Source: Pelagibacteraceae bacterium
Lineage (GTDB): Bacteria > Pseudomonadota > Alphaproteobacteria > HIMB59
Length of the DNA stretch: 50,646 nucleotides
Assembly: GCA_008638215.1 (NCBI GenBank)
Contig: VTPN01000006.1
Coordinates: 1-50,646 of the forward strand
Reading direction: 5' to 3'
Both the position numbers and the translations under genes were made by a program. Of this stretch, positions 35,913 to 39,109 are shown one piece after another (the first letter of the stretch is position 1; every line of letters begins with the position of its first letter). A model generated the notes under the pieces. The model was not told where the DNA came from. It saw nothing but the letters and a program-made list of their open reading frames with translations, and did no database searches.

Positions 35913-37040
35913 TTAGCCTATCAAGTAATACCAAAGATACGCAATAAATATTGCAGGGACAGCGCTATATAAAGTAGCTATAATCGCAGCTTTAGCAGAG
36001 ATTGCTATAGCTGGAAAAAGGGCATCCCCATCATTTGAAATGGAATTGCCAATTTGAGCTGACATTGGTAGTTGGCCTGAAACATACATTGAGGTAATCA
36101 TAATTTGAGGACCGCATCCTGGGATGAAGCCAATAATAATGGCCATTAAAGGAATAAAAGGACCAAAATATTTTAATGATTCAAATATAGCCCCTTGGGT
36201 TGAAATATTTATGAGTTCATAAATAACAAAAGAGATAATAACCCAAACAGTGACAAAGCAAGTAGTATCAACTACTTTTCGAAAAGAATTTTCATGAATG
36301 GAGGCCATTTGAATATCTGTCAAAGGATTTAAAACCCAAAGAAAAACACAATATAAAGCTAGTAAAAATGAAATAAATTGAATGATATCAATATCAGAGA
36401 CTAGATACGAAGTTTCAATATTCAAAGCATTCATAATACCTAGAGCTAATCCAGGAATTAAAAAGAAAAACCAAATCAAATAAAATTTATTAGATGTTTT
36501 ATTTTTTGGTAATTCGGTAATCAAAAAATCTCGGTTTATTTTTTTTTGAAGAAAGTTTTTAGTAAAAGGTTTTACAATGTAACCTGAAACTATACCTGTA
36601 CAAAAAGTAACTGGTAAAATAATTAACGCAGCTTGAGGTTTGGTAGCCAAAAGTAGGAAGGCAGCATCGCCCATCGTGGATATTAATGTAGCCAAGACTG
36701 CCCCAAAGGAAACAACACCTCTTGTAAATAGACTCATAACCATGATCGCACCACCACAACCTGGGATAGCACCTAGGAACGCACTTATAGGAATTTCTAA
36801 TTGTTGATTTTTTTGAATATAACTTTGTAGGTTAAAATTTTTTTTTTCCAAAAGAACAAACACTAGCAAAGTTGCCCCAACAAAAGTTGATACCGCAATA
36901 TACGCATCACTAGCAGATGATAAAAAAAGCTCTCTTGTTTGCTCAAATGCAATTAAAAGTAACATGCAAGAAAAAAGGATTATTTTTGATAAACGAAGGT
37001 ATTGAAATTTTTTTCCTAATTGAATTACAAGTTCTGTCAT
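35913..37040 (-). CDS. Putative manganese transporter
   Basis: A 375-residue membrane protein with about ten segments arranged as two inverted halves: IPGCGG (92-97) with GD (124-125) in the first, IPGCGP (306-311) with DGD (337-339) in the second. This duplicated pattern is that of the family annotated as putative manganese transporter (arsenic-efflux-like). Divergence from mntR, with an operator-like palindrome directly before the ATG, supports metal control. Probably an Mn2+ exporter rather than an importer, but direction is not shown by sequence. Confidence 0.82.
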   Translation of the reverse strand: MTELVIQLGKKFQYLRLSKIILFSCMLLLIAFEQTRELFLSSASDAYIAVSTFVGATLLVFVLLEKKNFNLQSYIQKNQQLEIPISAFLGAIPGCGGAIMVMSLFTRGVVSFGAVLATLISTMGDAAFLLLATKPQAALIILPVTFCTGIVSGYIVKPFTKNFLQKKINRDFLITELPKNKTSNKFYLIWFFFLIPGLALGIMNALNIETSYLVSDIDIIQFISFLLALYCVFLWVLNPLTDIQMASIHENSFRKVVDTTCFVTVWVIISFVIYELINISTQGAIFESLKYFGPFIPLMAIIIGFIPGCGPQIMITSMYVSGQLPMSAQIGNSISNDGDALFPAIAISAKAAIIATLYSAVPAIFIAYLWYYLIG

Positions 37041-37042
37041 TT

Positions 37043-37056
37043 TTAGCCTAGGCTAA
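37043..37056. promoter_or_regulatory. Perfect palindrome, probable MntR operator
   Basis: TTAGCCTAGGCTAA is a perfect 14-base palindrome two bases before the transporter ATG (37040). It covers the expected transcription start of the promoter at 37059-37086. Its central form resembles known MntR boxes with a GCC/GGC core, and mntR lies next to it. Binding here would block transcription initiation of the transporter. Confidence 0.75.
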
Positions 37057-37058
37057 TA

Positions 37059-37086
37059 ATTATAGATATTACTAAAAATTAGTCAA
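37059..37086 (-). promoter_or_regulatory. Sigma-70-type promoter of the manganese transporter
   Basis: On the minus strand TTGACT (37086-37081) and TATAAT (37064-37059) are separated by 16 bases, close to consensus in both boxes. The start of transcription would fall within the palindrome at 37043-37056, about 10-15 bases before the ATG. This is the clearest promoter in the window. Confidence 0.75.
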
Positions 37087-37120: not shown

Positions 37121-37540
37121 GTGAAAAAAATGTCTCAAAAAAACTCTACAGTCTCATCTCAGTATTTAAATATCAGAAACCAGAATAAGAATGAAATTCT
37201 TGAAGATTATGTTGAGGCTATTCAAGAAATATCTGAATTAAAAGGTGATGTTAAAAATGCTGATTTGGCTGAACACTTTGGTGTTTCTCAGGCGACAATT
37301 AATAAGAATTTAAAAAGACTAATTAATTTTAATTTAGCTAAATCCGAACCTTATCGATCAATATTTTTGACCAACGAGGGAAAAAGACTTGCTCAAATAT
37401 CAAAAGAAAAACACGAAATCGTATATAATTTTTTACTAAACATAGGTGTTTCTAAAAAAACAGCCCAATTTGACAGCGAAGGTATTGAGCACCATGTAAG
37501 TGACGAGACACTAAGAATAATGAAAAAATTTAAGAAGTAA
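37121..37540 (+). CDS. mntR: MntR-type metal-dependent regulator
   Basis: A DtxR/MntR-family DNA-binding protein, 139 residues. The N-terminal EDYVEAIQEI is followed by a winged helix-turn-helix (about 43-70, VSQATINKNLKRL) and the metal-binding/dimer segment with Glu, His and the EGIEHHVSDETL motif at about 121-132. Manganese is the expected ligand. Starts GTG 37121 or ATG 37130; neither has a ribosome site, so the mRNA may be leaderless. It probably controls the divergent transporter. Confidence 0.9.
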   Translation: MKKMSQKNSTVSSQYLNIRNQNKNEILEDYVEAIQEISELKGDVKNADLAEHFGVSQATINKNLKRLINFNLAKSEPYRSIFLTNEGKRLAQISKEKHEIVYNFLLNIGVSKKTAQFDSEGIEHHVSDETLRIMKKFKK

Positions 37541-39109
37541 TTATTTCTTATCTTTTAAAATAATTCTCTTTTCTAGAAAACTATCAAATACATAAATTGC
37601 AGCTGACAAAAATAGAATAATCGTTAATGCATGTAATGACCCTAATTCAAACATTTCATTAGAGGAGTACTCATAAAGGCTTGTTGCTAACGTATTAAAA
37701 TTAAATGGTCTGAGCAATAAGGTAATAGGCAGCTCTTTAATTGTATCGACGAGCACTAAAAAAAAACCTGCCAATATGCTTAATTTAATTTGAGGTATTA
37801 TAATTCTAAAATATGTAGTTGAAGGTCTTCGACCAATCAATCTAGAAGCATCATCAATTGATTTTCCAATTTTATCTAAACCGGATTGTATAGAATTATT
37901 AGAAATAGATATGAGTCTTATAATTAAAGCCAGAATTAGACCAAAGATAGAGGTCGATAATAAAATTGGAGAATACAAATCAAATAAGTTGATAAAAACC
38001 AAGACTCCCAAGGCTATGACGACACCAGGAAGGGCATAACCCATATTAATTAATTTTTTATAAAAATTAAACCAGGTTGATTTAGAGAATCTTGAAATGT
38101 AATTAATGAAGATAGAAAGACAGATGCATCCCATAGCAACAAATATTCCTAAAATTATTGAGTTTGACAATGAAGAAAAGTAGTTACGAAAATCTATGAG
38201 AACAAAATTTTTAATCATTAGAAATAAAGTAAATACCACCGGAATAAAATAGCCAAAAATAATCGGAACAGAGACAAAACATAAAACTAAAATTGTTTTA
38301 ATATATCCAAGTTGATATCTTGACCATTGAATGTGTTCATAGGACGAATTATGAAAGCTTTTTTTGCCCCTCATTTTTATTTCAAATGCATATAAAACCA
38401 ACATCAACAAAAGAACAACCAAAGACAACAAATAAGCCGAAGGAATATCATTAATAACAGAAATATATTGAAATACCCCAACAGTAAGAGTTTGAAGCCC
38501 AAAAAAATCTGCTACTCCATAATCATTTAAAGTTTCCATTAAAGCTAAAGCTAAACCGGCCGCAATTCCTGGAAGCGCCATAGGTATACAAATTCTAAAA
38601 AAACATTCATAAGAATTTTTACCCATTGTTTTTGCCGCTTCGATATAACGAGCCGAAAAATTGATGATAGCAATTCTTGTTAGTAAGTAGACATAAGGAA
38701 AAAGAGCAAAACTTAGAATCAAGGCCCCAAAAAAACTATTGCGCAAAGAAAAGCCATTATAATCAATTAGAATTGATGATAAATACCCTCCCGGCTCAAG
38801 CAGTTCAGCATAAGTGTAGGCAGCTATGTAGGCAGGCACTCCCAAAGGAAGAATAGATAGAATTTGAATAACTTTTCTTCCAGGATAATCAGTCATCGTA
38901 TTTATCCATGCCAATGGGACGCTAATAATAATTATGAAAAAGCTTACTAATAAAATAATTTTTGTGGAACCCCATATATATCTCGTAGAATAAAGATTTT
39001 GAAAACTCCCAAAAGAAGATATTGCATTTAATATGATTATAATTATAGGAGATAATAAAAGTAAACTTATGAAAAAAAAAATAGTGAGTTTAAAGTAACT
39101 GCTATTCAT
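37541..39109 (-). CDS. Iron(III)-type ABC transporter permease, fused halves
   Basis: A 522-residue permease made of two repeated halves, as in FbpB. Each half has an EAA loop: YIEAAKTMGKNSYECF with LPGIAAG in the first and IDDASRLIGRRP with PQIKLSILAG in the second. The ETLNDYGVADFFGLQTLT segment is typical of ferric-iron permeases. No binding protein or ATPase gene is adjacent, so partners must lie elsewhere. It overlaps the LysE gene by four bases (ATGA). Confidence 0.87.
   Translation of the reverse strand: MNSSYFKLTIFFFISLLLLSPIIIIILNAISSFGSFQNLYSTRYIWGSTKIILLVSFFIIIISVPLAWINTMTDYPGRKVIQILSILPLGVPAYIAAYTYAELLEPGGYLSSILIDYNGFSLRNSFFGALILSFALFPYVYLLTRIAIINFSARYIEAAKTMGKNSYECFFRICIPMALPGIAAGLALALMETLNDYGVADFFGLQTLTVGVFQYISVINDIPSAYLLSLVVLLLMLVLYAFEIKMRGKKSFHNSSYEHIQWSRYQLGYIKTILVLCFVSVPIIFGYFIPVVFTLFLMIKNFVLIDFRNYFSSLSNSIILGIFVAMGCICLSIFINYISRFSKSTWFNFYKKLINMGYALPGVVIALGVLVFINLFDLYSPILLSTSIFGLILALIIRLISISNNSIQSGLDKIGKSIDDASRLIGRRPSTTYFRIIIPQIKLSILAGFFLVLVDTIKELPITLLLRPFNFNTLATSLYEYSSNEMFELGSLHALTIILFLSAAIYVFDSFLEKRIILKDKK

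Follow-up and report, generated by a model that had tools for sequence, protein, structure and literature searches.

Why should a manganese-dependent repressor act on a gene whose protein family bears the name of a heavy-metal exporter? This is the question raised by the mntR-mntX locus. A sequence-only reading of this DNA had predicted simple repression of the transporter gene by MntR and had remarked that metal-dependent repression would be backwards if the transporter exported manganese, in which case either MntR might act as an activator or the transporter might import. We propose that the site upstream of mntX is very probably a switch that turns off a manganese importer at sufficient manganese.

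A palindrome on the promoter of mntX

The window, by which we mean the whole stretch of DNA that was analysed (50,646 nucleotides), contains at 35913-37040 on the minus strand the gene mntX, coding for a 375-residue membrane protein of family PF11449 (ArsP_2) and a predicted Mn2+ importer according to Pfam, NCBIfam and homology. Sequence and promoter scan agree on a -35 element TTGACT (37081-37086) and a -10 element TATAAT (37059-37064), both on the minus strand and separated by a spacer of 16 bases. The perfect palindrome TTAGCCTAGGCTAA (O1, 37043-37056), identified by sequence, pattern scan and conservation as the predicted primary MntR operator, ends two bases before the mntX ATG (37040-37038), and mntR is divergent; in all these points the sequence is as it had been read before. 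The promoter matches 11 of 12 consensus letters and is the top one of six matches in a promoter scan of the region; since the shuffled region gives 4.4 matches on average, the consensus match by itself is weak evidence for a mntX promoter. Judged by the position of the -10 element, transcription of mntX is expected to start near 37051-37053, within O1 as had been claimed, and of the very short or absent leader considered before, the short one is retained, with a predicted length of about 11-13 nt (37041-37053, minus strand). A possible Shine-Dalgarno sequence AGG (37047-37049, minus strand), located six nucleotides before the ATG, falls inside O1, and the ribosome may bind the mntX mRNA via the AGG of the operator itself; this AGG is missing in the loci L023 and L041.

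Perfect palindromes of at least 14 bp are as such not rare in the window, which holds 12 of them, but one with six G/C letters is, as the other 11 have at most two in a list judged by eye. In the whole genome the O1 14-mer is unique up to two mismatches, so that the search for further copies suggested by the sequence-only reading yielded no other. The conservation of O1 was followed in 52 genomes of the genus, 42 of which have mntX; G017 and G049, cut at contig ends, were left out, and of the 40 loci read 39 have upstream DNA, the exception being L040, whose genome has TTAGCCAAGGCTAA before mntX. All 39 loci have mntR divergent from mntX, and the palindrome is present in these relatives with the same gene pair: the 14-mer is exact in 34 loci and carries one mismatch in three, two in one and three in one, with a damaged half-site in L023, L041 and L042. 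By eye, TTGACT is found in 37 of the 39 loci and TATAAT or TATATT likewise in 37. Between the -35 element and O1 there are zero insertions or deletions in the 39 loci, whereas the distance from O1 to the ATG varies from 2 to 6 nt; this combination of a constant and a varying distance indicates that O1 is tied to the promoter and not to translation. The conservation of O1 is far stronger than chance, and a chance palindrome was rejected because of its conservation in same-genus and wider mntX loci.

The divergent regulator and the core of its proposed operator

The gene mntR (37130-37540, plus strand) codes for a regulator of the DtxR/MntR family, an assignment that follows from NCBIfam model NF008273, the structure match 2h09 and the metal-ligand columns. 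Its product scores 163.8 bits with NF008273, the E. coli type of MntR (cut-off 153), passes the cut-offs of Pfam families PF01325 and PF02742, and has E. coli MntR (2h09, E 8.8e-32) as its nearest solved structure. All 14 proteins of an alignment share the residues D29, E32, H98, E120, E123 and H124, which line up with B. subtilis MntR and its metal ligands D8, E11, H77, E99, E102 and H103. Mn2+-dependent DNA binding by the MntR of this organism is predicted. Its start is more likely the ATG at 37130 than the GTG at 37121 given by the ORF lister, as the former fits the starts of the relatives better. A weak promoter, TTTACT-17-TATTGT, would leave mntR almost leaderless if translated from this ATG; mntR promoter candidates vary between clades. 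At its other end, the mntR stop abuts the end of a convergent gene for a 522-residue ABC permease (37540-37541), with zero bases between them.

The core of O1, TAGC-N4-GCTA, recurs unchanged in AACATAGCAAAGGCTATGTT, which lies in front of mntH in E. coli (NC_000913) and is the MntR operator of that gene. The locus thus resembles the E. coli MntR/mntH system in a regulator above the NF008273 cut-off with 2h09 as the closest structure and in an identical core, but it differs in the target, which is the Nramp transporter MntH in E. coli and a PF11449 transporter here, and in the outer half-site, which reads ATAGC in E. coli and TTAGC here.

The full core also goes together with the regulator. Of 74 loci that include mntR, 68 have it within 150 bp of the mntX start, compared to 2 of the 51 loci that do not include mntR, against shuffle expectations of 0.32 and 0.06, respectively; these counts refer to sequences, many of them closely related, and not to independent events. 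The 125 loci are what is left of 150 mntX loci that passed (L040 and L095 were dropped for their short upstream sequence) once 25 of the 150, named-record copies of same-genus genomes, had been removed, and some near-duplicates between the source sets may persist among them. Outside the genus the full core occurs in 31 of 35 loci with mntR versus 2 of 51 without, and in other families it is found 20-120 bp before the ATG. Counted by genome, at least seven of the eight core letters are present in 10 of 11 genomes with an MntR above cut-off, which span six families, and in none of 18 genomes without (Fisher p 5.5e-7). These 29 genomes were searched out of 40 with a PF11449 match in the two wider sets (omitted were G000, G040, G046, G068, G234, G386, G487, G590, G635, G650 and G727), and the seven-letter match of G263 could be due to chance. 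The sole miss among the 11 is G159 of family f110, which has TTAGCCTTGACTAA just beyond the 150-bp limit. In the four f110 genomes mntR is located elsewhere in the genome, which explains why their sites have no mntR beside them. The loci L048 and L142 have a full-core site and L162, the genome of which was among those omitted, has seven of eight core letters, each with no mntR in the locus.

Taken together, the core follows MntR across marine proteobacteria. As expected for an operator, the core overlaps the promoter of its target (37043-37056), is conserved with the gene pair and is tied to the presence of the regulator. Simple repression by MntR, as predicted at the outset, is accordingly well supported as a reading of these sequences by the position of the site, its core, its conservation and the co-occurrence with mntR. 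A regulon with many targets was considered and rejected: TTAGC-N4-GCTAA has three copies in the genome, of which the two besides O1 fall within long ORFs. As O1 is the only operator-like site outside an ORF, MntR appears to act locally in this genome, on one target.

A proposed second site in a 19-bp register

The designation of this promoter-operator as complete was too strong because a weaker second site, 19 bp upstream, had been missed. When every offset around the palindrome was scored for TTAG-N6-CTAA in the genus (28 distinct sequences), offset -19 stood out with a mean match to 7.0 of the 8 outer letters, compared to 4.36 for the runner-up and 2.45 for the mean of all offsets. The respective sequence, TTAG-N6-CTAT (TTAGTAATATCTAT on the minus strand, 37062-37075), is proposed here as a weak MntR site, O2. 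Its centre is located exactly 19 bp upstream of the O1 centre, it overlaps the spacer and the -10 element, and it retains seven of the eight outer letters but not the core's inner C and G. For a sister clade with the core TAGCCATAGCTA, represented by 27 distinct sequences, the top secondary offset is +19; for the seven remaining loci it is -19.

Alternatively, O1 alone could be the operator and TTAG-N6-CTAT merely the sequence of spacer and -10 element, a possibility that we rate as rather unlikely. Repression of B. subtilis mntH via one strong site, reported in a section of PMC11275975, sets a precedent for it. O2 is without the inner C and G, its CTATA part is the -10 element itself, and its conservation can in part be conservation of the promoter. 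The TTAG half, however, does not coincide with the -10 element. It falls within the spacer, a stretch not usually read by sigma-70, and is nevertheless kept in 39 of 39 same-genus loci, including L039 and L042 with their differing -35 elements. Moreover, the top secondary offset amounts to 19 bp in absolute terms in all three groups, and this is the register of E. coli mntS. Instead of a single site, the switch seems to comprise two sites at a fixed spacing.

In the mntS-mntR intergenic region of E. coli, 19 bp separate the centres of two full-core sites, and mntS is repressed by MntR:Mn2 (as stated in a passage of PMC4361602). O1 and O2 have the same centre spacing, but both mntS sites are full-core whereas one of the two is degenerate here; since O2 is without the inner C and G, O1 and O2 may work like a pair, yet we do not class them as a full one. 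For B. subtilis mneP, parts of PMC11275975 describe 18-bp MntR sites 1 bp apart, cooperative binding and an identical spacing in mntS. The mneP and mneS promoters therefore share with mntX the 19-bp register, for which cooperative dimer-dimer contacts are reported in the same source, but differ in that four weak sites activate an exporter there, while a strong and a weak site lie over an importer promoter here. Elsewhere, cooperative MntR pairs could be tested for simply by looking for this register in promoter sequences.

We have high confidence in the following mode of action, in which binding, its metal dependence, the transcription start, the direction of transport and cooperativity are predicted, while the register, the conservation, the identity of the core with that of mntH and the co-occurrence with mntR can be read directly from the sequences. 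At high cytoplasmic Mn2+, Mn-loaded MntR dimers would occupy O1, where mntX transcription is expected to begin. The MntR bound to O1 would aid occupancy of the weaker O2 across spacer and -10 element, and with both sites occupied RNA polymerase would be excluded from the promoter. When Mn2+ drops, MntR would leave, the promoter would be released, and the importer would be translated from an mRNA whose leader measures about 12 nt.

Direction of transport and control of mntX in other lineages

The product of mntX scores 454.9 bits with PF11449 (cut-off 32.5) and 222 bits with NCBIfam NF037962, families that are named heavy-metal exporter and arsenic efflux, respectively, in their libraries. The exporter name of PF11449 misleads annotators and is the source of the paradox stated above. 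MntX of Roseovarius nubinhibens, Vibrio and SAR11 is reported to be a manganese importer (Green et al. 2013, cited in PMC13274385). The proteins ISM_02005, SAR11G3_00277 and VC_1688 are presumably members of PF11449. In a passage of PMC13274385 these three are named as MntX transporters involved in manganese import, to which VP1164 is homologous. The suggestion that the transporter may import is supported, as Vibrio and Roseovarius members of its family are described as the importer MntX, and with this membership the concern about backwards repression falls away.

The remaining gene content of the genus points in the same direction. An Nramp protein above cut-off is present in none of the 52 genus genomes. 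An ABC-3 permease is found in 42 of the 52, and in G001, the nearest relative, it belongs to a locus (L155:1502-4608) that comprises a strongly His-rich znuA, znuC, znuB and a Zur-like gene and looks like a zinc locus; its ZnuA is above the NCBIfam cut-off, whereas the matches of ZnuC, ZnuB and Zur are below theirs. The identity of the ABC-3 systems is judged on this one locus out of 42. For SAR11 genomes, part of PMC4771312 describes no TroA subfamily other than ZnuA, which is encoded beside a Fur-family gene. The idea that the genus has no ABC metal importer at all was rejected in view of the 42 genomes with ABC-3 and of ZnuABC with a Zur-like gene in G001; the genome studied here gives no ZnuA and ABC-3 matches, which is probably a gap in an assembly that is 92% complete. 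As no Nramp protein exceeds the cut-off and the ABC-3 system examined is ZnuABC-Zur, the genus appears to have no recognised gene for manganese import besides mntX.

The predicted fold of MntX (pLDDT 79.9) is closest to the arsenite efflux protein ArsB (VIA Z 15.4), followed by importers of the DASS and CNT types (VIA Z 10-12); Foldseek found nothing that matched the MntX model at an E of 0.001 or lower, and by sequence no solved relatives of MntX were found. At the level of a model, the fold does not settle the direction of transport. Genome context and co-occurrence with the regulator argue for import, and we infer that MntX imports Mn2+ in this organism.

Activation by MntR of a PF11449 protein that exports manganese (or arsenic), in analogy to E. 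coli mntP and B. subtilis mneP, is by comparison very improbable, even though the family names say exporter and ArsB is the closest solved fold. Transcription is predicted to start within O1, and a protein bound there blocks the polymerase; the promoter of mntX is, besides, already near consensus. Without mntX the genus would be left with no recognised manganese importer, and in several lineages without MntR the gene has Fur/Irr-like boxes. MntR is able to activate efflux genes according to parts of PMC11275975, but there the sites of E. coli mntP are stated to be some 170 bp away from the promoter, and for B. subtilis mneP one site is placed over the -35 element and the others further from the promoter; the homologues of MntX are, in addition, reported as importers (PMC13274385, in the passage mentioned). 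Similarly improbable is that the palindrome acts at the level of the mRNA, or that it is a self-complementary word which arose by chance at the ribosome-binding site: the AGG at Shine-Dalgarno distance and the abundance of palindromes in the window would fit, but O1 is fixed to the promoter and not to the ATG, part of it would be upstream of the transcription start, the core is too far from the ATG in other families to serve as Shine-Dalgarno sequence, and Rfam matches in the window, two tRNAs only, also dispose of a riboswitch or other RNA element.

Repression of a manganese importer by MntR through an operator on its promoter is textbook knowledge, and the MntX transporter family and its importer role are already in print. 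Among the papers listed by literature searches joining MntX and MntR, none is about this promoter, and we found no report of MntR with MntX in this lineage, of the paired register or of the link between regulator and site in a search whose coverage did not include Green 2013 and Rodionov 2006. We see about even chances for a wider proposal that extends repression by MntR at mntX in two respects. First, mntX would be under an asymmetric tandem operator, the strong site of which covers the transcription start while the weak one is hidden in spacer and -10 element. Their 19-bp register would let neighbouring MntR dimers touch, so that the sole manganese importer would be shut off steeply and cooperatively. 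Second, control of mntX would have passed several times between MntR and Fur-family regulators (Mur/Irr/Fur) in marine bacteria, with importer-type control kept throughout. The genome studied here is probably from an abundant uncultured ocean lineage, the AEGEAN-169/HIMB59 group, in which manganese uptake and its control seem to depend on a single small pair of genes.

The MntX proteins of Roseovarius nubinhibens, Vibrio and SAR11 resemble the one described here in transporter family, in their occurrence in marine bacteria and in their role in uptake, which is predicted here. Roseobacter mntX is controlled by Mur, a Fur-family protein, whereas the regulator here is MntR, a DtxR-family protein encoded beside the gene. 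In one locus set, the nearest lineages outside the genus (L098 and L099, 51-53% identity) have no mntR in the locus and no palindrome near the mntX start. Eleven further loci with no mntR in the locus (L056, L057, L059, L061, L062, L103, L107, L108, L114, L122 and L138) have more or less complete palindromes of the TTAGAAT-N-ATTCT type upstream of mntX; these resemble, as we assume, Irr/Fur-family boxes, and a Fur-family protein may control mntX there. Four searched genomes with repeats of the GCAAATAATTCTCATTTGC or GATAATTATTATC type gave no MntR above cut-off. Such repeats, which we take to be Fur/Mur-like, precede mntX in L157-L161 and L163, all of one genus outside the class of the window.
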